This document shows, one piece after another, positions 143-19,785 of a stretch of DNA of 37,559 nt. The first letter of the stretch is position 1; each line of letters starts with the position of its first letter. A model generated the notes under the pieces. The model ran no database searches. It was not told where the DNA came from and saw nothing but the letters and a program-made list of their open reading frames with translations. This DNA comes from an uncultured Bacteroidota bacterium (GTDB lineage: Bacteria; Bacteroidota; Rhodothermia; Rhodothermales; Salinibacteraceae), in the NCBI GenBank assembly GCA_937127285.1, contig CAKZLV010000213.1, positions 1 through 37,559 on the forward strand. Reading direction: 5' to 3'. The position numbers and the translations under genes are program-made.

Positions 143-892
143 TCATCCCAGATCGACGTTCACGAAACTATAGGGAGCAATCGGGTCGGTATAGCGGATT
201 AAGAACTCGTCGCCGAAGGCGTTCGCCGCTTCCTGGACAGCGTCCTCGAACGCCGGCACGTCGTCGCGGGGAACGAGGCAGGCCAGGTTGCAGACGTCGG
301 TTTCGTCCTTCGGCTCGTCGGCCTCGATGGCACGGCACACCGGTTCGAGGTGCGAGGTGGCCGTAGACCGGTGCGCCTCTCGCTCTGCGTCGAGGAGGTT
401 TTGGAACAGCTCTCCAATCTGAATCTTGGCCTGCCGGCTCGCTTCCCCGCTCCCGCGAAAGACGTCGTCGCGCATTTCGCGGAGCTCGTCGTAGCGGTCG
501 ACGAAGTAGCTGAAGATGTCGTCGACGTTCCACTTCATCCGGAATCCGACCTCGGCGTGGCCGCGGACGCGCTCGAGCTGGCGGGCCAGGTCGTCCCGGT
601 GGTCGGATAAAAACTGAACGACCTCGTCGGTGGAATCGGCGATGACGCCGAACGCCATCGGGAGGATCGTCTGCTCCTGCATGAGGTTCTTGAGCAGCCC
701 GTGGTGCGCCTGCAGATTTCGGCGGCGGGGGCGCGGGTCGTCTTCCGGCGCCGGGCTCACCACCGCCCCGACGCCGTCGGCGTGAACCAGAGACACCGAT
801 GCGCCCTGAATGCCTTCGGCCTCGTCCAGGGGATCCGACGCCGCCAGGGCATCCGGGTCGGCGATGGCGTAGACGTATGTGCGGGAAGCCAT
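143..892 (-). CDS. gvpF: gas vesicle protein GvpF/GvpL family
   Basis: A 249-aa member of the GvpL/GvpF family, minor gas vesicle proteins thought to bind GvpA and help nucleate vesicle assembly. The N-terminus (MASRTYVYAIAD) is the typical first beta strand. The central motifs NLQAHHGLLKNL and TILPMAFGVI are hallmarks of the family, followed by a helical domain with an MKWNVDD segment. I chose the ATG at 892 rather than an upstream start that adds ten hydrophobic residues, because the family normally begins just before this strand. It is the last gene of the gvp operon seen here. Many gvp clusters carry both F and L, so a paralogue may lie beyond base 1. F and L cannot be told apart from this sequence alone. 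Confidence 0.93.
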   Translation of the reverse strand: MASRTYVYAIADPDALAASDPLDEAEGIQGASVSLVHADGVGAVVSPAPEDDPRPRRRNLQAHHGLLKNLMQEQTILPMAFGVIADSTDEVVQFLSDHRDDLARQLERVRGHAEVGFRMKWNVDDIFSYFVDRYDELREMRDDVFRGSGEASRQAKIQIGELFQNLLDAEREAHRSTATSHLEPVCRAIEADEPKDETDVCNLACLVPRDDVPAFEDAVQEAANAFGDEFLIRYTDPIAPYSFVNVDLG

Positions 893-1048
893 GGACCGGA
901 GAGCAATCAACCAGAGAAACAACGAACGGGCTCGCCGTACACCGGCGCATCCGAACCGATCGGCAGCCGTCGGTCGGCAGGAAGTCGGTCGGCGAGGGCA
1001 TGGGCGTAAACTCGTCTTCCCGCCCCTCGATCCGGCCCCGGCGGCAGA

Positions 1049-1387
1049 TCAGTACTCGTACGAAAACCCGTTGTCGTCCTCCGCATCCAGCCGGGGGTCG
1101 GTCCGGTCGTCCGGATCCGTCGGCTCCAGACCGGCCTGTTCGTAGAGGGCCTGGATTTTCTGCTCCAGCGACGCGATTTCCTGTTCGCAGGACTCCACCT
1201 GCCGCTGGAGCGAGTCTCGGATGCGCTGCTGGCGAACCTTGGCCATCTGCAGATTGGCAATCTGGACGTACACCTCGTGAGACTGGCCGGAGCGGCTGGC
1301 GTCCAGGCTGGAGGTGGGCGGGCGCGTAGACGGCGGCTTGGGCACGTCGGCGCGGGGATGGGCGCCGGTCGATCGGGTACGGCTCAT
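1049..1387 (-). CDS. small coiled-coil protein in gvp operon, GvpV-like
   Basis: A 112-aa protein between gvpN and gvpF/L. The first 35 residues are basic and proline-rich. Residues about 38-88 form one coiled coil rich in Gln, Arg and Glu, and the acidic tail ends in Tyr-Glu-Tyr. From memory, cyanobacterial GvpV has the same plan: a basic Pro-rich start, a single coiled coil and a C-terminal Glu-Tyr. I infer a GvpV-like assembly factor on that basis, not from a search. Position and strand support a gas vesicle role. It could equally be an unrelated small coiled-coil accessory protein. Confidence 0.6.
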   Translation of the reverse strand: MSRTRSTGAHPRADVPKPPSTRPPTSSLDASRSGQSHEVYVQIANLQMAKVRQQRIRDSLQRQVESCEQEIASLEQKIQALYEQAGLEPTDPDDRTDPRLDAEDDNGFSYEY

Positions 1388-1400
1388 GGCGGGCAGCAGG

Positions 1401-1430
1401 TTGGTGAAAAGCGGATCGGTGAAAAGCGGG
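1401..1430. repeat. 15-bp tandem duplication
   Basis: Two adjacent copies of a 15-bp unit with core GGTGAAAAGCGG lie just upstream of the GvpV-like gene. Confidence 0.65.
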
Positions 1431-1537
1431 TTGGGGAGGGGCAGGAGAAGCGAGTCGAGCTGTTGCGGGTGGGGCCGGGACGCCGGGGTCGGGGTCTGCT
1501 TCTCTCCCCGGGCGAGCAGGGAGCACGGCCGCTCGGG

Positions 1538-2599
1538 TCAATCGTCATCTGCGGAACCGGGCGTGCGCGAGCCGTCTCCGGACGCCGACCCGTTTGCCGA
1601 CCCCGTGGGGGGCGGGCCGGAGGCGGACCGGGGGCGGCGGAGGATGCGATCGACGGTCGATTCGATGCGATCGCGCAGGTCGTTGTCATCGTCCAGCAGC
1701 GAGCGTCGGGCCGGTCGCAGCACATCGACGCAGGCGTCGTAGAAGAGACGGTTACCGGGCTCGATGTCTTCTTCTCGCCCGGAAAAGACGCGGGACAGCA
1801 CGATGGCCGCCCGAACGGACGGTCCGTCGTCGCTTCCGTCCATCGACCGGACGGCGCGCACGATGTCGACGATCCGCGCGGCCTTCTGCGCCGAGATGTT
1901 CGAGCGGGACTGAGCAATTCGAATCTCGGTCTCGCGCGTCTGGTAGTCGAGCTCGATGGTGATCAAGCGGTCCAGCAGCGCGCTCTGCGTCCGGTGCGTG
2001 CCGGCGTACTCTTCGGTGTTCGACGTGAAGATGGCGCGGAAGTCGGGGTGAACGCGAATGTAGCCGTCTCCGCCGCCGGAGCGCGTGGGCAGATTCAGGA
2101 TGCGCTCCTCCAGAATGCTGAGCAGGACGTTGTTCGCCTCGGCGCGAGAGCGCGTGAACTCGTCGTAGATAAGCGTGTAGCCCTCGCGGCAGGCCTTGGC
2201 CAGGCGGTTTTCCTCCCACATTTTCTTCACCTGCTCGTCGGTCTTCAGGACCGAGCGGATGAAGTTGTCAACCACCTTCGACTTCCGGTAGCCGACCTCG
2301 CTCCCGACGAGATCGGAGCGCGCGTACTCATCGTCTCCATGCAGGAGCACGGCCGGTTGCCCGAGTTGGGCGGCGACGTGGAAGGCGAGGCTGGTCTTTC
2401 CCGTGCCCGCCACCCCGGTGAAGTGAACGGGGTAGCCGGCGTCCATGTAGGCGAGGGCGCGGGTCGAAACCTGCTTAATCTCCGGCGTGACGACGAACTC
2501 GTCGCTCGGCTGCGGATGGAACGCGTCCTGCCGGTCCTGAACGCGAACGGAGACGGGCGTGTGAGACGAGGAAGCGGCCATCGGCGGTCGGGCAGTCAT
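1538..2599 (-). CDS. gvpN: gas vesicle AAA ATPase GvpN
   Basis: A 353-aa MoxR-type AAA+ ATPase. GvpN is needed for full-size gas vesicles and probably acts as an ATP-driven chaperone of assembly. Walker A (GVAGTGKTS) is at residues 62-70. Walker B (LIYDEFTRS) lies near residue 150, followed by an LLSILEE segment, the sensor-1 segment AIFTSNTEEYAGTH and an ALLDRL arginine-finger region. The C-terminal 50 residues are a Gly/Ser/Asp/Pro tail not usual in the family. Several Met codons lie near the start (2599, 2581) with no Shine-Dalgarno sequence to decide. It sits 339 bp downstream of gvpA, behind a terminator hairpin, so it is probably expressed at a lower level than gvpA. Confidence 0.94.
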   Translation of the reverse strand: MTARPPMAASSSHTPVSVRVQDRQDAFHPQPSDEFVVTPEIKQVSTRALAYMDAGYPVHFTGVAGTGKTSLAFHVAAQLGQPAVLLHGDDEYARSDLVGSEVGYRKSKVVDNFIRSVLKTDEQVKKMWEENRLAKACREGYTLIYDEFTRSRAEANNVLLSILEERILNLPTRSGGGDGYIRVHPDFRAIFTSNTEEYAGTHRTQSALLDRLITIELDYQTRETEIRIAQSRSNISAQKAARIVDIVRAVRSMDGSDDGPSVRAAIVLSRVFSGREEDIEPGNRLFYDACVDVLRPARRSLLDDDNDLRDRIESTVDRILRRPRSASGPPPTGSANGSASGDGSRTPGSADDD

Positions 2600-2861
2600 G
2601 GCGAAAAACGACGGAGTCCGGTTCGCCTCCGGACCCGGGGTGTAGATGAAAGGGCGGGCGGGGACACACGTTTCGGGGCGGGATGTCTGGGCCGGTCGCC
2701 CCCACCTTCTCCGGCGGCGCCTCCGACATACGAAAGGAGAGCCGGACTCCCGCCGGATCGCCCCGACAGACCGAGGCGATGCGGGGCCGGCCCTCCTTCG
2801 GCAGGGAAGGGATCGACGCGGTGCCCATCGGGCGATGATCCCGGCGGGAAGCGAAAGTCCC

Positions 2862-2901
2862 GAGCCGTAGACCCGAGCCGTAAAAACGAAGCCGTAAAAA
2901 C
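2862..2901. repeat. 13-14 bp unit, three copies
   Basis: Three adjacent copies of a GAGCCGTA(A/G)A-type unit of 13, 13 and 14 bp. On the minus strand the copies supply two T-rich tracts just after the gvpA terminator stem. Confidence 0.65.
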
Positions 2902-2936
2902 GAAACGGGCCGGGCAAAGCGTCCATCCCGGCCGGT
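2890..2936 (-). terminator. intrinsic terminator after gvpA
   Basis: Bases 2905-2914 and 2927-2936 form a 10-bp GC stem with one mismatch and a 12-nt loop. On the minus strand, two bases after the gvpA stop codon, the stem is followed by TTCGTTTTTACGG. This is a convincing Rho-independent terminator. It would leave an abundant short gvpA message with only read-through into gvpN. Confidence 0.65.
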
Positions 2937-2938
2937 CG

Positions 2939-3163
2939 TTACGACGCAGACGGGGCCGCCGCCGTTGCCGTCAGGCCGATGCCCTCGGCGTACTTCAGGT
3001 ACGTTTCGACGGACGCCACGACCACACGCGCCTCGATCGAGACGAGCTCGATGCCGACGAGCGACACCCGAGCAAACGCGTCGATGACAATTCCTTTGTC
3101 GAGAATGCGGTCGACCACTTCGGCCAGACCGCTTGCATCGGTGGATTTTTGCACTTCAGCCAT
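2939..3163 (-). CDS. gvpA: gas vesicle structural protein GvpA
   Basis: GvpA, 74 aa, is the main structural protein that polymerises into the ribs of the vesicle wall. The sequence is canonical: an [16 protein letters not shown] helix, the beta segment with VSLVGIEL, and [17 protein letters not shown]. The tail ends in an Ala/Ser/Pro run. The start at 3163 gives the normal GvpA length and is preceded by GAGG nine bases upstream, one of the few clear Shine-Dalgarno sequences in the window. It is the only classical gvpA here and has its own 457-bp leader and a terminator, so it looks built for strong separate expression. Confidence 0.97.
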
Positions 3164-3620
3164 AAGAAAGTACCTCGTGTTTGATTGAGTGAATAAGCGC
3201 GATGAACAGCGCAAGACGTGCGTCGGCCGTGCGATGCAGCGCCGACGAGCCCGAAAGCTCCGGGGCCAACGGCGATTCGAGCGGCCATCGCTCGATATGA
3301 AGTCGATTGGATCGTGATCCCGCCGTGCCCTGTCAGCCGGGCGGCATCTGCCGCGTCGACGAGAGGGCGTCGGCGAGAGGGAAGCGTCGATCCGGGGTGG
3401 GGCGAGCAGCACCGGACGGCCGCCGAAGCAACAAGCCCTGTGCCCTCGACCGCATCGGTTGAACCACCCCACAAAGAACATCCCGGCCTCGACCGCCCGG
3501 CGGTGCACCGGCCGCATTGTTCGGTGTCTTCACGTTTACTTCGTACCCGGCCGGGCGAGGGGTCGGCTGCCGGGCGATCCTCCCGGAGAGTTCGGCCCGG
3601 AGAGTTCGGCCCGCACCGCC
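3164..3620 (-). promoter_or_regulatory. gvpA upstream region
   Basis: A 457-bp gap between gvpJ and gvpA, by far the longest upstream region of a gene inside the operon. It probably carries the gvpA promoter. I could not pick out a convincing -35/-10 pair. It contains the SD-like GAGG next to gvpA and a 14-bp duplication at 3585-3612. The regulatory role is inferred from position. Confidence 0.4.
3585..3612. repeat. 14-bp perfect tandem duplication
   Basis: GGAGAGTTCGGCCC occurs twice without interruption, between the gvpJ stop and the gvpA leader. Confidence 0.75.
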
Positions 3621-4049
3621 TCAGTCCGCGCCCCCCGCGTCGTTCCCTGTCGTATCGTTACCAGCGTCGCCGGCCAGCCGGTCGAGGCGCTGTTCCATGC
3701 TGGCAAGCCGCTCGTTGAGAGCGGCGAGCTGCCGGGCCGTCTCCGCCCCGTCGTCTTCCGTTCCTTTGTTTCCTGTTCCGTCGTCTTCCGCTCCGGCCGA
3801 GGACGGCGGCGCCCCCTCGCCCAGACGCTGTCCGTGCCCGGCGTTGAGATAGTCGGCATCCTTCCACCAGTCCATTCCCATCTCCTGGGCTTTATCGACC
3901 GAGCAGATGATGAGGCGGATCTGGATGGTGAGGAGTTCGACGTCGTTGAGGTTGACCCGGATGTCCCCGGCCACTACAACGCCGGTTTCGAGCACGCGCT
4001 CGAGGATGTCGGCAAGGGTATCGGACTGCGGGAGGCGAGACGGAGCCAT
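3621..4049 (-). CDS. gvpJ: gas vesicle protein GvpJ (GvpA family)
   Basis: A 142-aa GvpA-family protein. Residues 8-70 follow the GvpA fold (LADILERVLETGVVVAGDIRV, here split after ETG, then VELLTIQIRLIICSVDKAQEMG), with the WWKDADYL extension characteristic of GvpJ. A variable acidic Gly/Glu linker is followed by a short amphipathic helix (residues about 107-127) containing LAALNERLASMEQRLDRL, which could self-associate or bind another Gvp. GvpJ is a minor assembly protein thought to sit at vesicle tips. The C-terminal coiled coil makes it longer than a minimal GvpJ. Confidence 0.9.
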   Translation of the reverse strand: MAPSRLPQSDTLADILERVLETGVVVAGDIRVNLNDVELLTIQIRLIICSVDKAQEMGMDWWKDADYLNAGHGQRLGEGAPPSSAGAEDDGTGNKGTEDDGAETARQLAALNERLASMEQRLDRLAGDAGNDTTGNDAGGAD

Positions 4050-4187
4050 GGCTGGGAGGCGGGGAAAGGGATTCGAGGGAGGGGCCGCGGGGCCGGTCGA
4101 ACAGCGGCGGGGCGAACGTCGAGAGGGCCGGTGTGCCGTTCGGCCTGCTGCCGGGGGCGGATGCGGTCGGTTCCGGCAGCGGTCCGC

Positions 4188-4598
4188 TCAGCGGTCGTCG
4201 ACGGTGTGGACCGCCCCCAGGGGGAGATCGAGATCTGCGGGGTCGATATTGAACGCCTCGCAGAGGTCGTCGATGGTTTCGGCCTGCCGCTTGAGGGTAA
4301 GGCCGACCCGCTCGATCTCCTCCTCCGTCAGACGCCCGGTTTCCATCCGCCGGATGGCCTGCTTCTCCAGCACATCGTGCAGAAGCTGCACGAGCGACAG
4401 GACGAGGCGGGCGAGGCCGTTGGCCGGCTCCTCCTCGGACGGGGGGCCCCCCGGCTCGTCGCCGGAGGCCCCGAGTTCGATGCGCCGGACGGACGTCGCC
4501 AAATCATCGAGCCGGGCGTCGATCGAGGCCTCATCTGTGCTCTGGGCGGAGGAGCCGCCGCGCGAGCCGGGCGAGGACGCAGCGGTCTGCTCAGACAT
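4188..4598 (-). CDS. gvpK: gas vesicle protein GvpK
   Basis: A 136-aa GvpK protein, a conserved minor component needed for assembly. The first 50 residues are a low-complexity Ser/Gly/Ala/Glu leader. The family domain follows, with LARLVLSLVQLLHDVLEKQ, the RRMETGRLTEEEIERVG core and a final LCEAFNIDPADLDLPLG. All of these are typical of GvpK. The ATG at 4598 removes an upstream Arg-rich extension. An AGGTG lies three bases before it, closer than a normal Shine-Dalgarno site. Confidence 0.93.
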   Translation of the reverse strand: MSEQTAASSPGSRGGSSAQSTDEASIDARLDDLATSVRRIELGASGDEPGGPPSEEEPANGLARLVLSLVQLLHDVLEKQAIRRMETGRLTEEEIERVGLTLKRQAETIDDLCEAFNIDPADLDLPLGAVHTVDDR

Positions 4599-4834
4599 AA
4601 CACCTGGGGATGGATCGAAACGAAGAAAACGAAACGGGAGGTCGGGGCAGTCCCGTGAAGGCCTCCGTCCGCAGATGCCCCTCCTGCGGATGCATCCCCC
4701 GTCGTGCATCGCCCCGTGGATCTATCGCCCTGCAGGTGCCCCGCCCTGTGGATGTATCACCCTGTGGGTCCAGCACAAATCGGGCCATCGACTCCGTCCC
4801 GATCCGGGCGGACGGCGGCGGGGCGCAGGATGGA
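4599..4834. repeat. degenerate repeats between gvpK and the GvpM/S gene
   Basis: A 236-bp gap whose centre (about 4675-4765) is built from degenerate copies of a unit like CCCTGTGGATGTATCGCC. No gene is seen in it. Confidence 0.45.
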
Positions 4835-5035
4835 TCAGTCGAATGCGGCCGGGGGGTCGAGGTCTCGGTCGATGGCGCGGTCGATGGAACTCAGAACCAC
4901 GCGTAGATCGAGGTAGAGGAGGTCCACATCCGCCACCGAAATCACGACGTCGCCGCGAATCACCGCGCCACGGTGCAGCACGCGGTCAAGAGCTTCGGCA
5001 AGTTCGACGTTCGACAAGCGGGCGGAGCGAGACAT
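4835..5035 (-). CDS. small GvpA-family protein (GvpM/GvpS type)
   Basis: A 66-aa GvpA-family protein. It keeps the family core (ELAEALDRVLHRGAVIRGDV, then VADVDLLYLDLRVVLSSIDRA in two parts) but lacks the GvpJ tail. Proteins of this size beside gvpK are usually called GvpM in archaea or GvpS in Bacillus, and are minor assembly proteins. I chose the ATG at 5035; an in-frame GTG at 5062 would add nine residues. Neither start has a Shine-Dalgarno sequence. The exact letter name cannot be settled from this window. Confidence 0.87.
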   Translation of the reverse strand: MSRSARLSNVELAEALDRVLHRGAVIRGDVVISVADVDLLYLDLRVVLSSIDRAIDRDLDPPAAFD

Positions 5036-5138
5036 AGAGCGGCCGTCAGAGGAAACAGTCACGAAGGAATCGTCAAACGAAGCAGCCGAGGACGCGGGCA
5101 GCGGGGCAGGTGGCGAACGTCCGGCGGTCGGCGGGAGA

Positions 5139-7061
5139 TCACTCCCGGCGGTTGTAGAGCCGGTTTCCGAGGTGGCGGAGATCCCGCGCGCCGCGCGGGG
5201 GACGCCCTTCCGAGACGAGCGTCATCGGCACGTCGCGGAACACGCGGCGGTAGCGGCGGAGGACGGCAGCGTCCGCGCGTCGCCGGGACGGGGGCGCGGT
5301 GGCGGCCGCCACCCGGTTGACGACGAGCGCCGCGAGCCCGGCGTTGTGCTCTGCCGCCGACCGGCGAAGGTCGTCCATCTCCGCGACCGCCATGGCCGTC
5401 GGGATCGTGACGCCGAGGACGCTGGCCGTGCCGGTCCGAAAGAGCGACCGTAGAGCCTTCACCTGCTTCGACAGACGGACGAGGCGGTCAACCAGGTCGG
5501 GCAGCCGGACGATGTGCCGGTGATCGCGAAGAATGCGAAAGAACGTGCGGATCCAGGTGCCGAAGACCGTCGGCATTTCCAGAAGCCGGACGAAGTGGCC
5601 GGTCGGGGCCGTATCCAGCACACACATATCGTAACGGTCTTCGTCCAGAAATTCCATCACGGCGATCCAGCCCATCACCTCGTCGATTCCGGGCGGCGCC
5701 AGGCTCATGAGAGACTCCGTCACTCGCCGATCGTGCGTGAGATCGACGTTCGGGCCGCCGGCGTCCCGAAAGAAGGCCCGGACCTCCTGCCCGTAGGCGG
5801 CGCGGAGCGCCTCAAACCGGCCGGCGGCGTCCACCTCGACGGCATCCAGGCCCTTGGCAACGGGCGTGGGGTCATCGGAGAGCTCGGCGTCGAGGGCGGC
5901 CGCAAGAGAGTGCGCCGGATCGGTCGACGCAAGCAAGACGGCCTGGTCGCCGGAGGCCGACCGGGCAAGCCGGAGCGCTGTGGCCGAGGCCACGGTCGTT
6001 TTTCCGACGCCGCCCTTCCCCGCTACCAGCAGAAGGTCGGCAGCCGGCGGGCGGAGCGGGGCGTGCACCTGCGGCACCGGGCGGGCCGACCGCGTCCGGC
6101 ACGGTGCAGCCACGGGCGGAGAGGGATCCGCGGGGAGCGGCCGCGCCTGGTCCCACACTGCAGCCAGCCGGTCGACCCCCCGAATCTCTGTATCCGCCTC
6201 CGGGAGAATCCAGACCTCCGGGTCGGTTCCAGAAACGGACGCCCGCAACGTGCGAATCGCCTGGGTCTGCGCGCCGTCGTCTTCCCGCCATCGGTTCACC
6301 ACCAGGCCGGCGACCGACACGGATCGGTCGCGCAGGGCCTCGACGAGGCGACGCGTCTCCGCCTCTACGACCGGCTCGGCCTGCGTTACGACCACGAACC
6401 GGCACCGGGACGCGGTGCGAAGAAGTGCGTGCACGCGGTCGGTTCGTTCGTTCAGGGTGTTCACGAACCGATCGAGGTCGTCCGGTTCGGTTCCCCCGCC
6501 GAACACCGAGCGCATCGTGCGGTGCTTCTCCAGCAGCAAGTCCAGGAAGTCGACCCAGCGAGCAAACTGATCCGGCGTGTCCAGCAGCCGCAGGGTGTGG
6601 CCGGTCGGCGCGGTGTCGACGACGACCAGTTCGCGCTCGGACGTCGCGTCGGGCGTCGGGCGGTCGGCCAGGTCGGCCAGGCGCAGAAAGGCCATGACCT
6701 CGTCCATTCCCGGCAATGACAGATCGAGGAGTTGCCGGATGGCTTCCTCATCGAAGAGCGACCCGCGGTCGACGATTTCGAAGAGCGTCTCCCGATAGGC
6801 CGACCGGAAGTCGTCCAGTTCCGCCTCGGCATCGAGTTCTTCAACGGTCAGCGACGCCGGCAGGTCGTCCGGATCGTCCACCGCCAGGCTGTCGGTCAGC
6901 GAGTGGGCGGGATCTGTGGAGAGCAGGCGGACCGGTTGCCTGCGGGATCGATGCAGAGCCGTTGCCGCAGCGCAGGTCGTCTTGCCCACACCGCCTTTCC
7001 CCCCGAAAAACAGGAGGTCGACGTCCGCACGCAGAAAAGACGGGAGGGCGGAGCGGGACAT
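5139..7061 (-). CDS. double-domain ArsA/Get3-like ATPase
   Basis: A 640-aa P-loop ATPase made of two homologous halves, like ArsA. The deviant Walker A GKGGVGKTT appears near residue 21 and again near residue 350. Each half also has the STDPAHSL segment and the switch motif DTAPTGH with a nearby RLL. The three metalloid-binding cysteines of plasmid ArsA are missing: the matching regions read LSLPGMDEVMAF, RLLDTPDQFARW and LAPPGIDEVMGW, none with Cys. No arsB, arsD or arsR is nearby. A role as arsenite pump is therefore unlikely. Lying between gvpG and a gvpA paralogue, it may be a Get3-like chaperone for hydrophobic Gvp proteins; that is inference. The start at 7061 was chosen because the P-loop then lies about 20 residues in. 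Confidence 0.9.
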   Translation of the reverse strand: MSRSALPSFLRADVDLLFFGGKGGVGKTTCAAATALHRSRRQPVRLLSTDPAHSLTDSLAVDDPDDLPASLTVEELDAEAELDDFRSAYRETLFEIVDRGSLFDEEAIRQLLDLSLPGMDEVMAFLRLADLADRPTPDATSERELVVVDTAPTGHTLRLLDTPDQFARWVDFLDLLLEKHRTMRSVFGGGTEPDDLDRFVNTLNERTDRVHALLRTASRCRFVVVTQAEPVVEAETRRLVEALRDRSVSVAGLVVNRWREDDGAQTQAIRTLRASVSGTDPEVWILPEADTEIRGVDRLAAVWDQARPLPADPSPPVAAPCRTRSARPVPQVHAPLRPPAADLLLVAGKGGVGKTTVASATALRLARSASGDQAVLLASTDPAHSLAAALDAELSDDPTPVAKGLDAVEVDAAGRFEALRAAYGQEVRAFFRDAGGPNVDLTHDRRVTESLMSLAPPGIDEVMGWIAVMEFLDEDRYDMCVLDTAPTGHFVRLLEMPTVFGTWIRTFFRILRDHRHIVRLPDLVDRLVRLSKQVKALRSLFRTGTASVLGVTIPTAMAVAEMDDLRRSAAEHNAGLAALVVNRVAAATAPPSRRRADAAVLRRYRRVFRDVPMTLVSEGRPPRGARDLRHLGNRLYNRRE

Positions 7062-7203
7062 GGCAGAAACGAGACGCGAAAGACGAATGGCGCGAGCAAG
7101 GCGCAAAAGACGGGGCGACCGGGCCGGGCACGGTGGGTCCGGACGCGGAGCAAGAGGTCTGTGCCTCCTCGTCCTCGGCAGACGGTTGTTCGGAGTGCGC
7201 CGT

Positions 7204-7461
7204 CTACGCCGGGCCGTCGTCGTCGAGCGTCTGCTCCGCTTCGCGGAGCGCGTCCAGCCGGTCGAGAATCTCCTCCTCCCGGCGGTCGAACGTCTCTTCG
7301 CTGATGTCTCCCAGTTCGAGCTGCATGTAAAGATCGTTCAGCTCGTCGCGGAGCGCTTGGCGCTCGTTCTCGACCTCTTCCTCCGCGGCGTCGTAGACGG
7401 CCTGCGCAACGAACGTCAGTCCCCGAAACGGGGCCAGGAAGATGTCGTCGATGAGAAACAT
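7204..7461 (-). CDS. gvpG: gas vesicle protein GvpG
   Basis: An 85-aa GvpG, a small helical assembly factor. It begins with MFLIDDIFLAPFRGLTFVA, the typical N-terminus of the family, and continues as a charged helix with LRDELNDLYMQLELGDISEE and a REEEILDRLDAL end. The length matches the family. No Shine-Dalgarno sequence is seen. A direct repeat of the TGATCA palindrome lies 14-36 bases upstream. Confidence 0.95.
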   Translation of the reverse strand: MFLIDDIFLAPFRGLTFVAQAVYDAAEEEVENERQALRDELNDLYMQLELGDISEETFDRREEEILDRLDALREAEQTLDDDGPA

Positions 7462-7474
7462 GAGAGGCGCTGGT

Positions 7475-7497
7475 AGTTGATCAGGGCAGTTGATCAG
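7475..7497. repeat. AGTTGATCAG direct repeat, 13-bp period
   Basis: Two copies of AGTTGATCAG, each containing the palindrome TGATCA, spaced 13 bp apart just upstream of gvpG. This could be a small tandem duplication or a pair of operator half-sites. Confidence 0.45.
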
Positions 7498-7631
7498 AAT
7501 GCGTTCAAATCCGGTCGGGTCCTACGCCCCACGTCGCGCCCTCCATGTCGCCTCCACGCGCCCTCCCGCATCCGCTCCCCGGCCCACAGGGTTCCCGATT
7601 CGAAAGGTTCTCACCTCACGACCTTTGCGGC

Positions 7632-8462
7632 TCACCCCTGGTCGCGGGCCTTGGTTGCGGCCTGGTCGATCCAGGAATCGACGTCGGCAAAGGAGGGCAG
7701 GCCGCCCATGAGGTCCCGGATTTCGTCGGCCGTGCGCGACGCCATGTCGCCGAACGTGCGGATGCCGGCCTCGCGCAGCCGGAACGCCATCTTCGGGCCG
7801 ATCCCCTGGATCTCCGCCAGGTTGTCCGTCTCGGGCGATGCGTCGGCTGCCGCCGCCGCGTCCTCTTCGTCGCTGGCAGCGCCGGTCGGTTCCGCCCTCG
7901 GCTCGGCGTCCGGCGGGGCCGGCGCATCGCTCGGCGCTGCGTCGGCGGCCGACCGCTCGCGTCGGCGGCGGCGAGCGGTGCGAGCCGTATCAATCATCTC
8001 AGCCACCGACGACCGGACGCCATCGAGGAAGGCCCGGCGCTCTTCGGCCGCCGCGTTCCGGGCCTTGTCGCGGTCGCGAGCAAAGTCCTCCTTCATCGAC
8101 CGAACGGATCCGCGAAGATCCGCCACAAACCGGCGTGCCTCTTGTGCCGCCTCGGGACGCCGCTCTCGGCTCTCGGCGGCCGACCGGGCGAGTTCGTCGC
8201 GAAACGATGCCAGTAGGGCTCGGACGTCGTCGGAGAGCGACCGCACCTCCGCCCGCACTGCCTCGATCCGTTCGCGCCGGGCGGCTCGGCCGGCGTCTGT
8301 GTCGGCCGCAAAATCCGCCCGGAACGATTCCAGCATCTCCTGCAACTCGTGACGGGCGGTTTTGAGGTCGGCCCGGAGTGCACCAAGCCGGTCTTGATTG
8401 GCACTGCGAAGCTCGTCGAGTTCGGCGCGAAGCCGGCGCATCTGTTCGTCAAGGTCGGCCAT
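7632..8462 (-). CDS. GvpC-like coiled-coil protein with HhH domain
   Basis: A 276-aa protein, first gene of the gvp operon. Residues 1-165 are a long amphipathic helix region with repeated Phe-centred segments: SFRADFAAD at 46-54, SFRDEL at 86-91, RFVADL at 111-116, DFARD at 127-131 and AFLDGV at 145-150. This resembles GvpC, the outer-surface strengthening protein, whose helical repeats carry similar F-x-x-x-F patterns. An acidic Ala/Pro linker (about 172-212) leads to a helix-hairpin-helix domain (212-276) with the EIQGIGPKMAFRLREAGI signature, a fold common in DNA-binding and protein-binding proteins. GvpC identity is inferred from repeat style and location. The HhH domain is not a usual GvpC part. 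Confidence 0.75.
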   Translation of the reverse strand: MADLDEQMRRLRAELDELRSANQDRLGALRADLKTARHELQEMLESFRADFAADTDAGRAARRERIEAVRAEVRSLSDDVRALLASFRDELARSAAESRERRPEAAQEARRFVADLRGSVRSMKEDFARDRDKARNAAAEERRAFLDGVRSSVAEMIDTARTARRRRRERSAADAAPSDAPAPPDAEPRAEPTGAASDEEDAAAAADASPETDNLAEIQGIGPKMAFRLREAGIRTFGDMASRTADEIRDLMGGLPSFADVDSWIDQAATKARDQG

Positions 8463-11558: not shown

Positions 11559-11993
11559 CTAATCCAGCGGCTCCGCCAGCATGTTGGTCAGGCGGTCGAC
11601 GCGCTCCTGAGACAGAAGCGGCTCCAGCCCCTCGATAATCAGGCTAACGCACGTGGCGCGGTAGATAAGGTTGTTGTCCGCCATCCCGTCGGATGCCGTC
11701 TGGTTCTGGATGCGGGTGTTCAGCATCGTCCAGTGACACTTCACCTCGATGTACTGGATCGCCACTCCCCGCTCCAGCTCCTCGATGGTGTCGATCTCCA
11801 TCAGGCTGCGCACAATCCGGTTGCGGAGCCCGGAAACGTACGCCCGGACGGCCTTCTTCTGCGAGGGCGCCCCTCCCTCCCATCCAGAGAGCACTTCGTC
11901 CCACTGGTCGTCGAGACGGTCGCGCAGGGTGGCTTCGATCTGGTCGTGAAGGGTCTGGACTTTCTTGGTTTCGTTCGGTTGCGTCGTTTCCAC
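11559..11993 (-). CDS. hypothetical protein, 144 aa
   Basis: I do not recognise this protein. It is mostly helical and soluble, with no signal peptide or membrane segment. Features are an N-terminal charged helix (LHDQIEATLRDRLDDQWDEV), a YVSGLRNRIVRSLMEI helix, a YIEVKCHWTMLNTRI segment and a C-terminal helix with LEPLLSQERVDRLTNML. The order of charged and hydrophobic residues and the normal composition argue for a real gene. It is the only minus-strand gene between the gvp operon and the PYP genes, and it diverges from the giant coiled-coil gene across a 1.2-kb gap. It may belong to the same system. Confidence 0.75.
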   Translation of the reverse strand: METTQPNETKKVQTLHDQIEATLRDRLDDQWDEVLSGWEGGAPSQKKAVRAYVSGLRNRIVRSLMEIDTIEELERGVAIQYIEVKCHWTMLNTRIQNQTASDGMADNNLIYRATCVSLIIEGLEPLLSQERVDRLTNMLAEPLD

Positions 11994-13199: not shown

Positions 13200-16100
13200 A
13201 TGTCCGACACCTTCAGGCCTGATTCTTCCCGTCCCGACACCGACCGCTCCACCCACTGGTACGAGAAGCGGTGGGCGGCGCTGTGCGACGTGCTCGGTAC
13301 CGACGACCCGGGCGAGGTGGTTTCTCGCGTCCGCACCCTGCAGGACCAATTCGAGCAGCTGGACGCGCAGTCGGGCAAGCCCGAGGGTCTTCTCACGATC
13401 AGCGAGGTGGAGGAGGTCTTTCAGGAGATGCACGAAAAGCTGCAGGCCTTGCGACAGCGCAACCAGGCCCTGGTGGAGCAGCTCGACGACGAGAGCGGGT
13501 CCGGCGTCGAGTCGGCCTTTAAGGAGCTGCACCGGGAGGCGGAGGCGCTGCTCGACGCGTTGGGCGTCTCCAGCATGGACGAGGCCCGAGACCGGGTGGA
13601 CAGCCTCAACGAGCAGTTGGACAACCTGTACCGCGAGAAGGAGCGCCTCGTCGAGGCGGGTCTTACGAGCGCCGACGAGGCCCTGGAAGAGTTCAACCGC
13701 CTGCAGGCCGAGCGCGACGAGCTGGCCGGCGACCTAAAGGACCTGCAACGCCGGAACGAGACGCTGCAGGAAGAGAACGACCGGCTTCGGGAGACGGCGG
13801 ACGCCGCCGAGGCGGCCTCGCAGAAGGAGGAGCGCCTGCAGGCCGTGACCGAGGAGCGCGACGCCTTGAAGGAAGCCACCAAGAACCTGGAGGCCGAGAC
13901 GGAGCGCCTGCGGGAGCAGGCCGAGGCGCTCGAGGCCGAAAACCAGCAGCTACAGGAGCAAAACGACCACCTCCAGCAGGCCACGCGCCAGGCCCAGGAC
14001 CGGCTGGAGTCCGTCGCCGAGGAGCGCGACCGCCTGCGGGCGGACGTCTCGCGCCTGGAGGAAACGGTGGAGCAGCTCGAAACCCGTCTCGCCCAGGCCC
14101 GGGAGTCGTCGCCGGCCGGCCGCCGGTCTTCCCCCGACACGTCCGTTCTGGAAGCCGCATCGGCCGTTCGCCACGTCCTCGGGGTGGAGTCGCCCGGCGA
14201 GGCGGAAGCCCTCGCCCGCGCCGTCGAGTCGATGCACGACCGCGTTCGTGCCCTCACCGAGGAGCGCGACCGGATGACGCAGCGGGCCGGCGTCGAGGAG
14301 GCGGAGGACATCTGGGACTTGATTGGAAGCATGCAGGACCAGCTCGAAGACCTCTATGCCGACCGCGAGGCACAGCAGGAAGCGACGGAGATCCCTGCGG
14401 AGGTCGCAGACGTGCTGGGGATCGCCCGGGCCGATGAAGCCCAGGAGCTGGCCGCCACCGTTCGCCGCATGGGCGAGCGCCTGCAGGCGCTCAGCGCCGA
14501 ACGGGAGCGCCTGAACGACCGCGTCGGGACCCCCAACGCCGACGATGTCGCCGCCATGATCGAAAGCATGGAGGCGCAGCTCATCGACCTCTACGAAGAG
14601 CGGGAGACGGCAGCCGGCGACGATCCATCAGCCGGCGACGATCCGTCGACGCTCGAGCTGGAGATTCAGCGCCGTCTGGGCGTCGAATCGGTCGAAGAGG
14701 CCGAGGAGCTGGAAGAGCTCGTTCACAGCATGAGCGAGCGCCTGCAAAGGCTGTCGGAGGACCAGAGAAAGCTCGACGACGCCGGCCTCACCGTCGACCA
14801 CGCGCTGGCGATGATCGACAGCATGGAGGGACAACTCGTCGACCTGTACGAGGAGCGGGAGGGGCTGCAGCCGGAGAGGGACGCCCCGCCGTCGGCACTC
14901 GAAGACCCGGCTCCCGGGGCGTCGTCATCGGACGCAGACGACGCGGCGGACCCGGCCGCCGCCTCGACGCAGGCACCGCTCGTGCAGAGCGTCCAGGAAG
15001 AACTGGGGGTGAGCTCGCCGGACGAGGTCAGCGAGCTCAGCCAGTTGATCCGGTCGATGACCGAGCAGCTCAATCGCCTCTCCCAGCAGCAATCCCAGCT
15101 CGCAGATCTGGGGTTGAGCGTAGAGAACGCGCTCACCATGATCGAAAACATGGAGGCGCAGCTCGTCGACCTGTACGAAGAGCGCGAGGACGACGCCGAC
15201 ACCGCCGTCCGCGAGCGGCTGAGGTCGCTGCAGGACATTCTCGGGGTCGAATCGCCGGAGGACGCCCGGCAGCTGGAGTCGCTCGTCCGCTCGATGGAGA
15301 AGCAGCTGCAGAGCCTCATTGCCGAAAAAGAAGAGATCCTTCGCCAGACCGGGTTGGGCAGCGTCGACAGCATCGCGAAGATGGTTGAGAGCATGGAGGC
15401 GCAGCTCGTCGACCTGTACGAGGAGCGCGAGGAGCGCGGCCAGGCCCGCGAGCACCTGCAGGCCATCGACGACGTGCTCGGCATCTCGACCCGGCGGGAG
15501 GCGGAAGAGCTTGCCGGGCTCGCCCGCAGCATGGAGCAGCAGCTGGACGACCTGTACGAGGACAAGCAGCAGCTGGAGGCCATCGGTCTGAACAGCGTCG
15601 AGGACGCCGTCAACATGATCACCAGCATGGAGGATCAGCTGGCGGAGCTCTACGAGGACAAGGAGTCGGTGCAGGACCTGGAGACGCTCGCCGCGAGCCC
15701 GGAGCAGGACACCTTCCAGCAGCTTGAGGCCCTCTACGCCGAGCAGGAGAAGCTGAAGCGCGAACTGGGCGTCGCCTCCGCCGACGAGATCATCGAAATG
15801 GTAGAGGGCCTCTCTACGCAGCTCGACGAACTCTACACCACCCGCGACGCCGACCGAACCGACGACGTCGACGGCCTGCTTCCGGAAGACCACGACACGG
15901 AGTCGATTCAGCCGACGGCGGGGGCGGACGCCATGCCGGATGCGACCTCTTCCGGTATCTCCGCCGATACGATGATCGTATCGAGCATGCGCGAGCAGCT
16001 GGAGGCGCTCTACGAAGAGAAAGAAGCCCTTCTCCAGCGCGGATTCAGCGACGCCCGCGAGGCCGCGGCACAGATCGACCGTCTCGAAAGCCAGATCCGT

Positions 16101-16721
16101 ACCCTCAATCAGCAGATCACCGAGACCGAGCGTCAGCTGGAGCGGATTCAGGCGGAGACGGGCGCAGAAAGCGTCACGCAGGTGATCGACGTCGTGCAGT
16201 CGCTTCAGAAACCGCCGTCGGCGTCCGGTGGTGCCGCCACGTCCGCCACGTCAGGATCCTCTCCGCCGGCCTCCCCATCGTCCTCCGCCGATGCCTCCAC
16301 CGATGCCTCCGCGGATCGACTCAAGATCGACGCCGCCTCCCGGTTCTTCGACGACGACACGCTGTCTCGGCTCGACGCCATGACCTCCTCCGATCTGGAC
16401 GCTCTCGACGCCGGCGCCCTTCGCCTGGCCGACGACGGACAGATCGAAGCGGCGAACGAACCGGCCCGCTCCCTCCTCCCCGGCCAGAACGCCCGCGAGG
16501 AAAGCTCCCTCATCGGACAAAACTTCTTCCTGCAGGTGGCGCCGAGCACCAACAACAACCTCTTCTTCGGACGCTTCAAACAGGGCGTCGAGGAGGGAGC
16601 CATGGACGCCTGTTTCCCCTACACGTTCATCTATCCCGGAGAAGGCCCCACCGTCTTGATCGTTCATCTGTACCGGCAGCGCGACCGCGGTACGAACTGG
16701 CTTCTCTTCCGCCCCATGTAG
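13200..16721 (+). CDS. giant coiled-coil repeat protein with blind PYP-like domain
   Basis: A 1173-aa acidic protein. An early module copy (about 120-175) is followed by a long coiled coil (about 175-310). Residues about 325-950 hold seven copies of a module: an LGVxSxxEA start, an SM-xx-QL helix, a GLxSxxxA turn and a SMEAQLVDLYEERE helix. The LGV starts at DNA 14178, 14415, 14676, 15003, 15240, 15477 and 15765, so three steps are exactly 237 bp (79 residues). After a Ser/Ala/Asp linker, the last about 110 residues are a photoactive-yellow-protein-like PAS domain (GQNFFLQVAP, NNLFFGRFKQGVEEG). The chromophore Cys is replaced by Ser1116, and the Tyr and Glu that hold the chromophore are also lost, so the domain should not bind p-coumarate. 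No membrane segment is seen. I infer a cytoplasmic rod or scaffold whose PYP-like end partners the two PYPs encoded next. Confidence 0.9.
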   Translation: MSDTFRPDSSRPDTDRSTHWYEKRWAALCDVLGTDDPGEVVSRVRTLQDQFEQLDAQSGKPEGLLTISEVEEVFQEMHEKLQALRQRNQALVEQLDDESGSGVESAFKELHREAEALLDALGVSSMDEARDRVDSLNEQLDNLYREKERLVEAGLTSADEALEEFNRLQAERDELAGDLKDLQRRNETLQEENDRLRETADAAEAASQKEERLQAVTEERDALKEATKNLEAETERLREQAEALEAENQQLQEQNDHLQQATRQAQDRLESVAEERDRLRADVSRLEETVEQLETRLAQARESSPAGRRSSPDTSVLEAASAVRHVLGVESPGEAEALARAVESMHDRVRALTEERDRMTQRAGVEEAEDIWDLIGSMQDQLEDLYADREAQQEATEIPAEVADVLGIARADEAQELAATVRRMGERLQALSAERERLNDRVGTPNADDVAAMIESMEAQLIDLYEERETAAGDDPSAGDDPSTLELEIQRRLGVESVEEAEELEELVHSMSERLQRLSEDQRKLDDAGLTVDHALAMIDSMEGQLVDLYEEREGLQPERDAPPSALEDPAPGASSSDADDAADPAAASTQAPLVQSVQEELGVSSPDEVSELSQLIRSMTEQLNRLSQQQSQLADLGLSVENALTMIENMEAQLVDLYEEREDDADTAVRERLRSLQDILGVESPEDARQLESLVRSMEKQLQSLIAEKEEILRQTGLGSVDSIAKMVESMEAQLVDLYEEREERGQAREHLQAIDDVLGISTRREAEELAGLARSMEQQLDDLYEDKQQLEAIGLNSVEDAVNMITSMEDQLAELYEDKESVQDLETLAASPEQDTFQQLEALYAEQEKLKRELGVASADEIIEMVEGLSTQLDELYTTRDADRTDDVDGLLPEDHDTESIQPTAGADAMPDATSSGISADTMIVSSMREQLEALYEEKEALLQRGFSDAREAAAQIDRLESQIRTLNQQITETERQLERIQAETGAESVTQVIDVVQSLQKPPSASGGAATSATSGSSPPASPSSSADASTDASADRLKIDAASRFFDDDTLSRLDAMTSSDLDALDAGALRLADDGQIEAANEPARSLLPGQNAREESSLIGQNFFLQVAPSTNNNLFFGRFKQGVEEGAMDACFPYTFIYPGEGPTVLIVHLYRQRDRGTNWLLFRPM

Positions 16722-16828: not shown

Positions 16829-17449
16829 ATGTCCTCCGATCCTGCCCGCGACCTGTACTCGTTCCTCCGCTCGAAAGACTTCATCCCCGAGGATGAAGGC
16901 GATGGGGAGGGCGACGGAGACGCCAGCCTGCGCGCCGTCGACTCGTTCGACGATGCCGACGCCGGATCGACCGAATCCGCCGATGACGACCGCCGTCGCA
17001 CCGCGTCGTCGCCGGCCGACGGTTCTGCGGATTCTGCGGACCCCGGTGCGTCCTCCGCCTCTTCTTCGGGCGACGCGGCGTCGCTTTCCTTCGACGACGA
17101 CGCCGTCGGGGAGCGGCTTCGTTCTTGCGGTACCGACGAGCTGAACGAGGCTCCGTTCGGCATCGTGGCCGTCGACGACGAGGGCGTCGTTCGGTTCTAC
17201 AACCGCTACGAATCCGAGATGAGCGGCGTCGACCGCCAAACGGCCGTGGGCCAAAACTTCTTCACCGAGCTGGCCCCCTGCAGCAACAACCGGATCTTCC
17301 TCGGACGCTTTCAGAAAGGAATTCGGACGGGCGAGCTCGACGAGCGGTTCAACTACACCTTTACGTACAAGATGAGCCCGACCCTGGTGGACATCCGCCT
17401 CTACCGCGACGAGGCCGGAAACAACTGGATTTTGGTCCGGAAGCGGTAG
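16829..17449 (+). CDS. photoactive yellow protein, long N-terminal extension
   Basis: A 206-aa blue-light photoreceptor of the PYP family. Residues about 95-206 align without gaps around the active site of Halorhodospira PYP. Cys151 in APCSNN matches Cys69 (thioester to p-coumaric acid), Tyr124 matches Tyr42 and Glu128 matches Glu46. Thr50 is replaced by Ser132 and Arg52 by Val134. The C-terminus has the expected FNYTFTYKM, TLVDIRLY and WILVRKR strands. The first about 90 residues are an acidic Ser/Asp-rich extension that starts with DLYSFL, a peptide shared with the next PYP. An in-frame GTG at 16817 would add four residues. It lies 107 bp after the giant gene and 34 bp before the second PYP gene. 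The Salinibacter PYP also has an N-terminal extension. No chromophore biosynthesis gene is in the window. Confidence 0.95.
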   Translation: MSSDPARDLYSFLRSKDFIPEDEGDGEGDGDASLRAVDSFDDADAGSTESADDDRRRTASSPADGSADSADPGASSASSSGDAASLSFDDDAVGERLRSCGTDELNEAPFGIVAVDDEGVVRFYNRYESEMSGVDRQTAVGQNFFTELAPCSNNRIFLGRFQKGIRTGELDERFNYTFTYKMSPTLVDIRLYRDEAGNNWILVRKR

Positions 17450-17483: not shown

Positions 17484-17975
17484 ATGGCTTCCTCCCCGAC
17501 GCAAGACCTCTATTCGTTTCTGAAGGACAAGGGCCTGACGCAACCCGACGACGAGGCGGCACCGCCCCCTGCCACGTCGCGATCGGACGGCGGCGGCCCG
17601 CAGCCGCTCCTCGACTTCGACGACGATCAGATCGGCGAGCGCCTTCACCAGGCCAGCCGAAAGCAACTCGACCAGGCCGATTTCGGGATCGTCCGCGTCG
17701 ACGACAGCGGGGTGGTCGAGTTCTACAACACGTACGAGTCGCGCCTCGCCGGGGTCGAGCCGTCCGACGCCCGGGGCCGAAACTTCTTCACGCAGCTGGC
17801 CCCGTGCAGCAACAATCGGATCTTCCTCGGCCGGTTCAAGAAGGGGGTTCGCACCGGCAGCCTCGACGAGCACTTCACCTACACGTTTACCTACAAGATG
17901 CGGCCGACGCTGGTCGACATCCGCCTCTACCGCGACGAGGCCGGAAACAACTGGGTGATGGTCCGCAAGCGGTAG
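17484..17975 (+). CDS. photoactive yellow protein, second copy
   Basis: A 163-aa PYP, clearly a tandem duplicate of the upstream gene: the last 66 residues differ at only ten positions. The chromophore Cys is Cys108 (APCSNN), with Tyr81 for Tyr42 and Glu85 for Glu46. Thr50 is replaced by Ala89 and Arg52 by Val91. Loss of the Thr50 hydroxyl, which hydrogen-bonds Tyr42 in the prototype, could shift absorption or slow dark recovery relative to the first copy; that is inference. The N-terminal extension is shorter (about 48 residues) but begins with the same DLYSFL peptide, so this peptide may be a docking tag. It is spaced 34 bp from the first PYP gene, suggesting co-transcription. Confidence 0.95.
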   Translation: MASSPTQDLYSFLKDKGLTQPDDEAAPPPATSRSDGGGPQPLLDFDDDQIGERLHQASRKQLDQADFGIVRVDDSGVVEFYNTYESRLAGVEPSDARGRNFFTQLAPCSNNRIFLGRFKKGVRTGSLDEHFTYTFTYKMRPTLVDIRLYRDEAGNNWVMVRKR

Positions 17976-18075: not shown

Positions 18076-18903
18076 ATGAACCGCAACGAGCCTTCCAACT
18101 CCGAGCCGCCCCCGCGCCAGCCGGGGGGTCGTCCGCCGCGGACCATCCTGGAGGTCCTGTGCCGCGAGGTCGGGGCCGCGCACCCGGACGGTGCGTTGAA
18201 GCAGATCCGGTCGATGAAGCGCCTGCTGCGGTCGCACTACCACAACCAGCAGCGCCTGCAGCGCTGGGGCCTGGACGGGCTCGGCGACGCCGTACGCGAG
18301 GTGAAGCGCCTCCAGACGACCGTTCGCGATGTTCGCACTACGCAGCGGCAGCGGGCAGCGGCCAACGTCGCGGCGCTCGACGATGCCCTGGAGGTTCTGG
18401 AATCGGCCCGGCAGCAGCTGCGCGAACGAGCCACCGCCCCTCCCGCAGCCGTAGGCACGGAGGCCGCGACCGATCCGCCCGAACGGGAGGGTGCCGCACA
18501 GAAGACCCCTCCACCAGGAGCGCCGGTTCGTGAAGAGCCGGACCGAGAGGCGCCGGGTGAAAAGGCATCGGGTCAAAAGGCATCGGGTCAGGCGCCGGTC
18601 CCGGGGGCGCCCGTTCAGGAGGAGATGGATACCGCGCTCCGGATCATTCGCTCGGTGCGGGCGGAGGTCGAGGAGATGCGCCTGGAGCTGTGGGCGGCCG
18701 ACGATTCGACCGCGTCCGGCCCCGTTCCCGGGAAGGCCGCCCAGGCGTTGCTGCAACGGCTGGCGGGGTGGCTGGACGACGTCTCCGGCTCTCCGACGCC
18801 GCCTTCCCCACCGGCCGACGATGCATCGAGCCTCTTGGAGCGGCTGCAGAAGCAACAAGAGCGATTGAATCTTCCAGAAGCGCCTGCCACGCAAACGGCA
18901 TAG
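18076..18903 (+). CDS. coiled-coil protein sharing the giant protein's module
   Basis: A 275-aa protein of unknown function. Residues about 25-90 match one module of the giant coiled-coil protein: EVGAAHPDGA, then IRSM, 19 residues to a GL (WGLDGLGDAV), then a helix with VKRLQTTVRDV. In the giant protein the same ARSM, 19 residues, GL (IGLNSVEDAV) order is seen. A low-complexity Pro/Ala/Glu middle follows, with a 15-bp in-frame duplication giving EKASGQKASGQ. A second helical pair comes after it (MDTALRIIRSVRAEVEEM; SLLERLQKQQERL). It is 100 bp after the second PYP gene and ends nine bases from the convergent response regulator gene. It may join or cap the giant protein's rod. Confidence 0.85.
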   Translation: MNRNEPSNSEPPPRQPGGRPPRTILEVLCREVGAAHPDGALKQIRSMKRLLRSHYHNQQRLQRWGLDGLGDAVREVKRLQTTVRDVRTTQRQRAAANVAALDDALEVLESARQQLRERATAPPAAVGTEAATDPPEREGAAQKTPPPGAPVREEPDREAPGEKASGQKASGQAPVPGAPVQEEMDTALRIIRSVRAEVEEMRLELWAADDSTASGPVPGKAAQALLQRLAGWLDDVSGSPTPPSPPADDASSLLERLQKQQERLNLPEAPATQTA

Positions 18904-18912
18904 CTCCGCCGG

Positions 18913-19614
18913 TCAGTCGTCCTCCGTCTGCAGCCGGTACCCCACTCCCCGAATCGTTTCCAGGCGCACCGACTCTTCAGTCTTGTCAGTCTTGTCGACG
19001 GCTTCGCCGAGGCGCTGGCGCAGGCCCGACACCGTGACGTCGATGGCGTTGTCCGAGACGTACTCCGTCCCCCACACCCGCTCGGCAATCGACGTCCGCG
19101 ACACGACGGCGGGGGATTCCTCGGCCAGAAGGCGCAGCAGGTCGAACTCTTTCTTACGAAGATCCACCTCGTGGTCGGCAACGGCGACCTCGCGGGTGGC
19201 GGTGCTGATCTGCAGGGGGCCGACCTCCAAATCGTCGATCGTCTGCCAGTCGGCCGGGCGGCGAAGAAGCGCCCGCACGCGGGCGAGCAGTTCCTCGAAC
19301 GAGAACGGCTTGGTGAGATAGTCGTCGGCACCGCTCTCCAGTCCCTCCACGCGATCGTCGACGCTGTCTCGAACGGTGAGCATCAAGATGGGAGCCGCAT
19401 AGTCCTCCTCGCGGAGTTCCCGGACGAAATCCGGGCCGCTCATTCCCGGAAGCATCCAGTCGACGATGAGCGCATCGTAGCGGTGCGACTCCGTGCGCAC
19501 GCGTGCATCCTCGGCATCGGCGGCGTGATGCACGCGGTACCCCTGCGACTCCAATCCGTCGGTCAGCGTATCGGCGAGTTCCGTTTCATCCTCGACGAGA
19601 AGAACCAGTTTCAT
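18913..19614 (-). CDS. OmpR/PhoB-family response regulator
   Basis: A 233-aa two-component response regulator. The receiver domain (1-120) has the acidic pair in LVEDE, the phosphoacceptor Asp in ALIVDWMLPG, the Thr in LMLTVRD and the Lys in YLTKPFSF. The C-terminal half is a winged-helix DNA-binding domain with LRKKEFDLLRLLAE, the RVWGTEYVSDNAIDVTVSGL recognition region and a RGVGYRL end. I chose the ATG at 19614 because the open frame upstream has no receiver-like sequence. No histidine kinase gene is adjacent; the next gene downstream on this strand is the 144-aa gene. Targets are unknown. It is convergent with the PYP cluster, separated by nine bases. Confidence 0.93.
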   Translation of the reverse strand: MKLVLLVEDETELADTLTDGLESQGYRVHHAADAEDARVRTESHRYDALIVDWMLPGMSGPDFVRELREEDYAAPILMLTVRDSVDDRVEGLESGADDYLTKPFSFEELLARVRALLRRPADWQTIDDLEVGPLQISTATREVAVADHEVDLRKKEFDLLRLLAEESPAVVSRTSIAERVWGTEYVSDNAIDVTVSGLRQRLGEAVDKTDKTEESVRLETIRGVGYRLQTEDD

Positions 19615-19785
19615 ATCACAGCCAGCATGCCTATCCGGGGAGGGTGGGTGCACGATGGGCCGGGTGCTGTGTAGAGCCGCCGACCCTCGGGGTGCTGTAC
19701 GGGTCCGTTGCAAGACGGGAAAACATACGAACAACCGTGCACCGCTTCAACCCTTTCTCCGGAGGAGAACGCCCCGAGCCGGCGG

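Follow-up and report, generated by a model that had tools for sequence, protein, structure and literature searches.

The 37,559 bp contig CAKZLV010000213.1 (assembly GCA_937127285.1), hereafter the window, comes from an uncultured member of the Salinibacteraceae (Bacteroidota; Rhodothermia; Rhodothermales) and includes a gene for a 1173 aa protein in which a long helical repeat rod ends in a photoactive yellow protein (PYP) domain that has lost its chromophore site. The next two genes encode small PYPs with the complete active site. A partnership between small PYP and the blind domain is strongly supported by the co-occurrence of their genes, their order and their matching phylogenies, and we put at about an even chance the proposal that the rod protein is a dedicated light-blind partner docking photoactive PYP on a helical scaffold. 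The genes and domain on which this proposal turns are:

13200..16721, forward strand: giant rod protein with C-terminal blind PYP domain, 1173 aa (open reading frame, with the start aligned to orthologues)
16320..16721, forward strand: chromophore-less PYP domain, residues ~1041-1173 (sequence matches, AlphaFold, alignment)
16829..17449, forward strand: small photoactive-type PYP 1 with an N-terminal DLYSFL motif (Tyr42, Glu46 and Cys69 retained)
17484..17975, forward strand: small photoactive-type PYP 2 with an N-terminal DLYSFL motif (Tyr42, Glu46 and Cys69 retained)
11562..11993, reverse strand: 144 aa protein, divergent from the rod gene (co-occurrence with PYP)

A PYP domain without its chromophore site

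An earlier sequence-only reading of this DNA had given the strand, coordinates and length of the rod gene correctly, and had described its C-terminus as a PYP domain with Ser1116 in place of the chromophore Cys and no counterpart of Tyr42 or Glu46, next to two genes with the full active site. All of this was borne out. The C-terminal ~102 residues matched PYPs in the Protein Data Bank with E-values of ~1e-12, and TIGR02373 (photo_yellow) matched residues 1049-1171 with an E-value of 1.3e-18. The TIGR02373 score of the blind domain was 67.3 bits and those of the two Cys-bearing PYPs in the window were 109 and 112 bits, all below the curated cut-off of 143. When residues 1041-1173 were modelled alone using AlphaFold with 14 aligned sequences, the PYP fold and no other was obtained (predicted local distance difference test, pLDDT, 85.5; predicted template modelling score, pTM, 0.82), and a Protein Data Bank search with this model returned PYP, PYP variants and the Ppr PYP domain as the top ~40 matches (best E-value 1.4e-11, TM 0.81/0.87). 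Judged by sequence and model, the rod C-terminus is a genuine PYP domain. In the alignment, Ser1116, Ala1085 and Ala1089 occupy the positions of Cys69, Tyr42 and Glu46, respectively, and under the published definition based on Cys69 (PMC9664959) the domain, going by these residues, is a PYP homologue and not a functional PYP.

The rods are of two kinds, giants of ~790 to 1173 aa and short rods of ~360 to 630 aa, modules having been gained and lost. Because the length varies so widely, the earlier idea that the rod acts as a ruler was rejected; the rod may act as a tether or scaffold. Three families of the order contributed to the comparison set, which comprised 22 rod domains and 27 small PYPs. 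A rod that keeps the Cys was sought among the 22 and none was found: position 69 is Ser in 13, Gly in five, Ala in three and Asp in one, with Ser in every giant compared and Gly, Ala, Asp or Ser in the short rods. Tyr42 is gone from all 22 and Glu46 from 21, and the aromatic framework (Phe62, Phe75, Phe92, Tyr94 and Trp119) is mostly retained. The 27 small PYPs all keep Cys69, Glu46, Met100 and Tyr or Phe at position 42.

Co-occurrence and gene order

In a survey of 114 genomes of the order, a small PYP was found in 21, 15 of which also have a rod, and the other 93 have neither; no genome has a rod without a small PYP. The 144 aa gene, the product of which had no match in Pfam, NCBIfam or PHROGs, is present in 21/21 PYP genomes and 1/93 of the others. 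It stays beside the PYP gene even after loss of the rod, a distribution that makes it a second candidate partner for PYP.

Giant loci share the divergent 144 aa gene, the rod and one or two small PYPs, and several also include a companion coiled-coil gene and most an opposite-strand gene for an OmpR-type regulator. A rod gene followed by a small PYP gene is a recurring arrangement, seen in the giant loci, in most short loci and in two other families, and in most short loci genes for a CoA-ligase and an ammonia-lyase come after both. In G004 and GSL.Bin3, the giant locus, regulator, a multi-PAS kinase, short rod, PYP and ligase are adjacent, as is the lyase in G004. The two other families were searched on a prediction from the 144 aa neighbour gene, and in them the 144 aa gene, rod and small PYP were found, followed by ligase and lyase; the last two are a single fused gene in one case, and the rod lies across two contigs in the other. 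The named giant loci (Salinivenus sp. metagenome-assembled genome JAHENZ010000232.1, Bacteroidetes QH_7_62_13, GSL.Bin3 and SW_9_63_38) were found by a pattern scan with an alignment of giants only. When all blind domains were aligned, the divergence was too great for such a scan, and a single-sequence scan of the genome contigs with the C-terminal domain gave no match.

Phylogeny and selection

In a tree, blind domains and small PYPs fall into two separate clades (99/96 and 97/83, respectively). Both clades split alike, with the Salinibacteraceae separated from the two other families, which is consistent with long co-inheritance, and single clades with matching splits fit a single ancient duplication and a single blinding followed by co-inheritance. 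The rod L128, from outside the Salinibacteraceae, retains Glu46, and this suggests that Cys69 and Tyr42 were lost before Glu46, though long branches make finer points unsafe.

The ratio of nonsynonymous to synonymous substitution rates (dN/dS, Nei-Gojobori) of the blind domain in three pairs of giants was 0.055, 0.057 and 0.064, compared with 0.045-0.098 for the small PYPs and 0.12-0.13 for the rest of the rod in the same genomes, the ratios being rough since several dS values are high (1.6-2.8). On these sequence comparisons, the blind domain of the giants appears to be under purifying selection as strong as that on the small PYPs and is plainly not decaying. The one short-rod pair with unsaturated sites gave 0.23, and some short-rod PYP domains, namely L047 and the second copy of L054, are very divergent. 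This divergence, together with the loss of all three chromophore residues, is what could be said for the blind domain being a decaying relic. For the giants, in which PSTNNNLFFGRF is nearly invariant, that reading is ruled out by dN/dS values of ~0.06; the short rods differ in this respect, and we give the relic reading overall hardly any credence.

Architecture of the rod

The rod upstream of the PYP domain includes the following parts:

13254..13500, forward strand: conserved N-terminal cap, residues ~19-100 (WYxxxWxxLC...; TISEVEEVF), with blocks invariant in five giants
13674..14103, forward strand: window-specific long continuous coiled-coil insertion, residues ~159-301, shorter or missing in other giants
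14178..15680, forward strand: six repeat modules of two ~32 aa halves each (autocorrelation, module starts, alignment, hidden Markov model matches)

The start at 13200 is preferred over an upstream in-frame ATG at 13044 because the orthologues align from the same Met, and M1 and D3 are invariant in the alignment of five giant orthologues. The 79-residue period noted earlier was recovered as an autocorrelation maximum at lag 79 (z 5.8), exceeding 500/500 shuffles. The earlier count of seven modules is about right, as six modules are clear, with starts at residues 327, 406, 493, 602, 681 and 760 (spacings 79, 87, 109, 79 and 79), a divergent one at residue 121 and a half at residue 856. The two halves within each module resemble each other. 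In a low-confidence AlphaFold model of the full-length protein (five aligned rows, pLDDT 56.8) only helices with short breaks are visible, the insertion is one long helix, and the C-terminal part is modelled worse than in the model of the domain alone.

The modules weakly resemble the second helix of HAMP domains, the best stretch matching a histidine kinase construct (9trk) with an independent E-value of 0.76. In Pfam, HAMP scored 23.2 bits against a cut-off of 25 and not one stretch passed; we regard the case for a poly-HAMP identity as weak. The Pfam search revealed no methyl-accepting chemotaxis protein (MCP) signature in the rod protein, and no gas vesicle family was among its Pfam or NCBIfam matches.

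Neighbouring genes and related loci

Further features flank the rod and PYP genes in the window:

18076..18903, forward strand: companion coiled-coil protein (a single rod-like module), relatives of which follow PYP or rod elsewhere
18913..19734, reverse strand: OmpR-type response regulator (Response_reg, Trans_reg_C), a homologue of which adjoins several other giant loci
143..8462, reverse strand: gas vesicle cluster with GvpL/F, GvpN, three GvpA/J-type genes, GvpK and GvpG, and also genes for an ArsA-type ATPase and a coiled-coil/helix-hairpin-helix protein

The companion protein had no match in Pfam. The small PYPs of giant loci start with (D/N)(L/P)(Y/F/H)S(F/Y)L (DLYSFL, NPYSYL or DLFSYL), followed by a long acidic, probably disordered linker, and those of short loci carry YPFL or SxLD-like motifs instead; the N-terminal motif is a possible docking peptide.

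Within the gas vesicle (gvp) cluster, the ArsA-type ATPase (5139-7106, reverse strand) has two ArsA matches, and homologues are found in the gvp clusters of G003, G010 and G022. In G010, the contig ends would be consistent with the order found in G003, namely rod, PYP, companion and gvp. At locus L060 in G024 (9518-9910, reverse strand), a fragment of a PYP with the Cys runs into sequence that overlaps a gvpK fragment, and gvp genes adjoin it, reflecting either a rearrangement or an assembly join.

The genome from which the window comes has, on contig C55, a shorter rod (587 aa open frame) built of the same modules, and its C-terminal PYP domain has Ala in place of Cys69. Downstream of it come a PYP gene with the Cys and then genes for an AMP-binding ligase and an aromatic amino acid lyase, the last two being, from their sequences, likely chromophore genes; the divergent gene upstream encodes a histidine kinase that combines several PAS domains with a GAF domain. 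At L127 (5810-8905, reverse strand) the ligase and lyase are fused in a 1032 aa AMP-binding ligase/aromatic amino acid lyase behind rod and PYP. At L054 (7779-12830) and L116 (9094-14219) one PYP lies between two rods, the second of which is degenerate, and ligase and lyase follow. Genomes without a rod have a ~90 aa short-rod stub, made up of the cap and half a module with no PYP domain, directly upstream of the CoA-ligase gene. The stubs are:

L110, 9478-9954, reverse strand
L111, 8635-9327
L112, 9093-9518
L113, 9056-9394
L114, 9790-10212, reverse strand

At L009, a contig end (19165-19463) has a short tandem repeat with V/I/A-rich or D-rich frames.

A possible mechanism and its alternatives

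The sequence-only reading had taken the terminal domain for a blind partner that could form a heterodimer with photoactive PYP. Every rod found shows this blindness, and co-occurrence, gene order and phylogenies favour the partnership. We envisage that a duplicated PYP became the terminal part of a helical repeat protein and, while retaining the PYP fold, shed the three residues by which p-coumaric acid is held and tuned. The light sensor would be the small PYP encoded beside the rod, which in one of its two states would pair PAS to PAS with the blind domain, possibly aided by its own N-terminal peptide motif, and blue light would alter this pairing. The rod, with its helical modules and N-terminal cap, would then relay the change to an effector or serve as a common scaffold for several PYPs. 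In several genomes, giant or short rods have genes for the OmpR-type regulator and the multi-PAS histidine kinase next to them, and these two proteins would form a likely downstream branch. In its fullest form this is a heteromeric photoreceptor of one fold, with light-gated pairing of PYP and a chromophore-less PYP domain on a helical rod, which arose once in the order by duplication and blinding and would be the missing PYP signalling partner here. We hold this fuller version tentatively, at somewhat below even chances.

Several observations weigh against a light-gated partnership. Physical binding, light dependence and an output are what we infer, and for binding the evidence is genomic linkage only, the counts behind it treating genomes as independent of kinship. 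Six PYP-bearing genomes have no rod carrying a PYP domain, and small PYP can thus work without one. In genomes such as G007, G012, G015, G020 and G022 the giant has been lost, its PYP and 144 aa gene remain, and of the short system there is just the ~90 aa stub; hence, the rod is dispensable for PYP in some species. The N-terminal motif persists, modified, in genomes that no longer have the giant, and may therefore have another binding target. There are four rods and two small PYPs in G003, the rods L045, L049 and L056 have no adjacent PYP, and a histidine kinase adjoins rods at only some loci.

The strongest competitor, though an unlikely one, gives the blind domain, with its inherited PYP fold, the role of a structural end-cap or homodimerization domain of the rod that no longer contacts PYP, with the linkage left over from an old operon duplication. 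PAS domains often dimerize, the rod family goes back to a single duplication and was passed on as a unit, and in G003 rods outnumber small PYPs. A free-standing structural protein would not, however, need a small PYP in its genome, and no rod without one was seen in the 114 genomes; moreover, the constraint on the blind domain of giants equals that on PYP and not that on the looser rod. Less probable again is a pocket re-purposed for another non-covalent ligand or for a redox or other cue, so that the cluster would integrate two signals. It would account for an aromatic framework that is largely retained when the chromophore contacts are lost and for the invariant Ser at position 69 of the giants compared, and methylobacterial Ppr-PYPs lacking Cys69 have been proposed to have changed function (PMC9664959). 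In short rods, however, position 69 can have drifted to Gly, to Ala or to Asp, indicating that no single chemistry is kept, and the Y42C/S50C pairs proposed for redox sensing are in no rod.

The gas vesicle genes raise a further alternative, in which the rod is part of the vesicle machinery and PYP renders flotation light-responsive. The rod-PYP cluster adjoins a full gvp cluster in the window and in G003, where rod, PYP, companion and gvp genes are successive on one strand, and gvp genes are present in 4/10 giant-bearing genomes of the family and 1/17 others (Fisher p 0.047, kinship ignored). On the other side, no gvp match was obtained in G004, G017 and G417, which are 95-99 % complete and carry giants, or in G434 and G443, which carry rods, and G022 has gvp genes and no rod. 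As giants occur where no gvp genes were detected, gas vesicles cannot be their general purpose and were rejected as a general explanation; we consider this account improbable, with light-controlled flotation possible in the window's own lineage. Even less weight attaches to a role in chromophore loading, with the rod as an assembly scaffold linking apo-PYP and p-coumarate ligase. Most short rods are just upstream of the PYP, CoA-ligase and ammonia-lyase genes, and a stub of the rod is kept directly upstream of the ligase in rod-less genomes. Yet the giants are located away from ligase and lyase genes, the stub has no PYP domain, and PYP takes up its chromophore in vitro without such a helper.

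Relationship to known systems and significance

The blind domain shares fold, sequence framework and ancestry with PYP clade B (Salinibacter, Leptospira) and differs in lacking the chromophore Cys, Tyr42 and Glu46 and in being fused to a long helical repeat rod. Substitutions of Cys69 have been reported in PYP clades A and B, with the Ppr-PYPs of methylobacteria discussed (PMC9664959). These, like the rod protein, are multidomain proteins with a PYP domain that has lost Cys69, but there the PYP is N-terminal to a phytochrome histidine kinase and redox cysteines were proposed (PMC9664959), whereas the blind domain is C-terminal on a rod that lacks a catalytic domain and has gained no cysteine pair, with a photoactive PYP alongside. 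MCP-PYP fusions (PMC12826048) resemble the rod protein in having a C-terminal PYP on a long helical protein, but they keep Cys69 and include a chemoreceptor signalling domain, of which no signature was found in the rod protein. Sensory rhodopsin and Htr, compared with MCP-PYP in the same survey (PMC12826048), offer an analogy of working only, a photoreceptor being encoded together with a dedicated blind helical transducer. In the rod protein, in contrast, there is no homology to that system and no membrane domain, and the partner domain is a degenerate copy of the receptor. Fungal White Collar-1 and White Collar-2 pair a light-sensing PAS-type protein with a chromophore-less PAS partner, in an unrelated lineage and with a partner that binds DNA.

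The literature search yielded no description of a rod that ends in a blind PYP domain, most subscription papers and the supplementary lists being outside the search, and the latter may hold such sequences unremarked. The 2025 PYP survey covers Cys69-containing homologues only and does not mention gas vesicles in its main text (PMC12826048).

PYP is among the best-studied photoreceptors and its partners are largely unidentified. The 2025 survey calls its signal transduction chain an important gap (PMC12826048), and the signalling partner of the Halorhodospira halophila PYP is still unidentified according to a 2026 paper (PMC13250908). The rod blind domain and the small PYP are a named, expressible pair with which PYP signalling can be tested directly, with the 144 aa gene as a second candidate, and if light-gated pairing is true it would supply a new natural PYP-based dimerization tool. 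In the salt-loving Salinibacter group and two related families, a blind copy of PYP has been kept beside a working one, in the giants under equal constraint.

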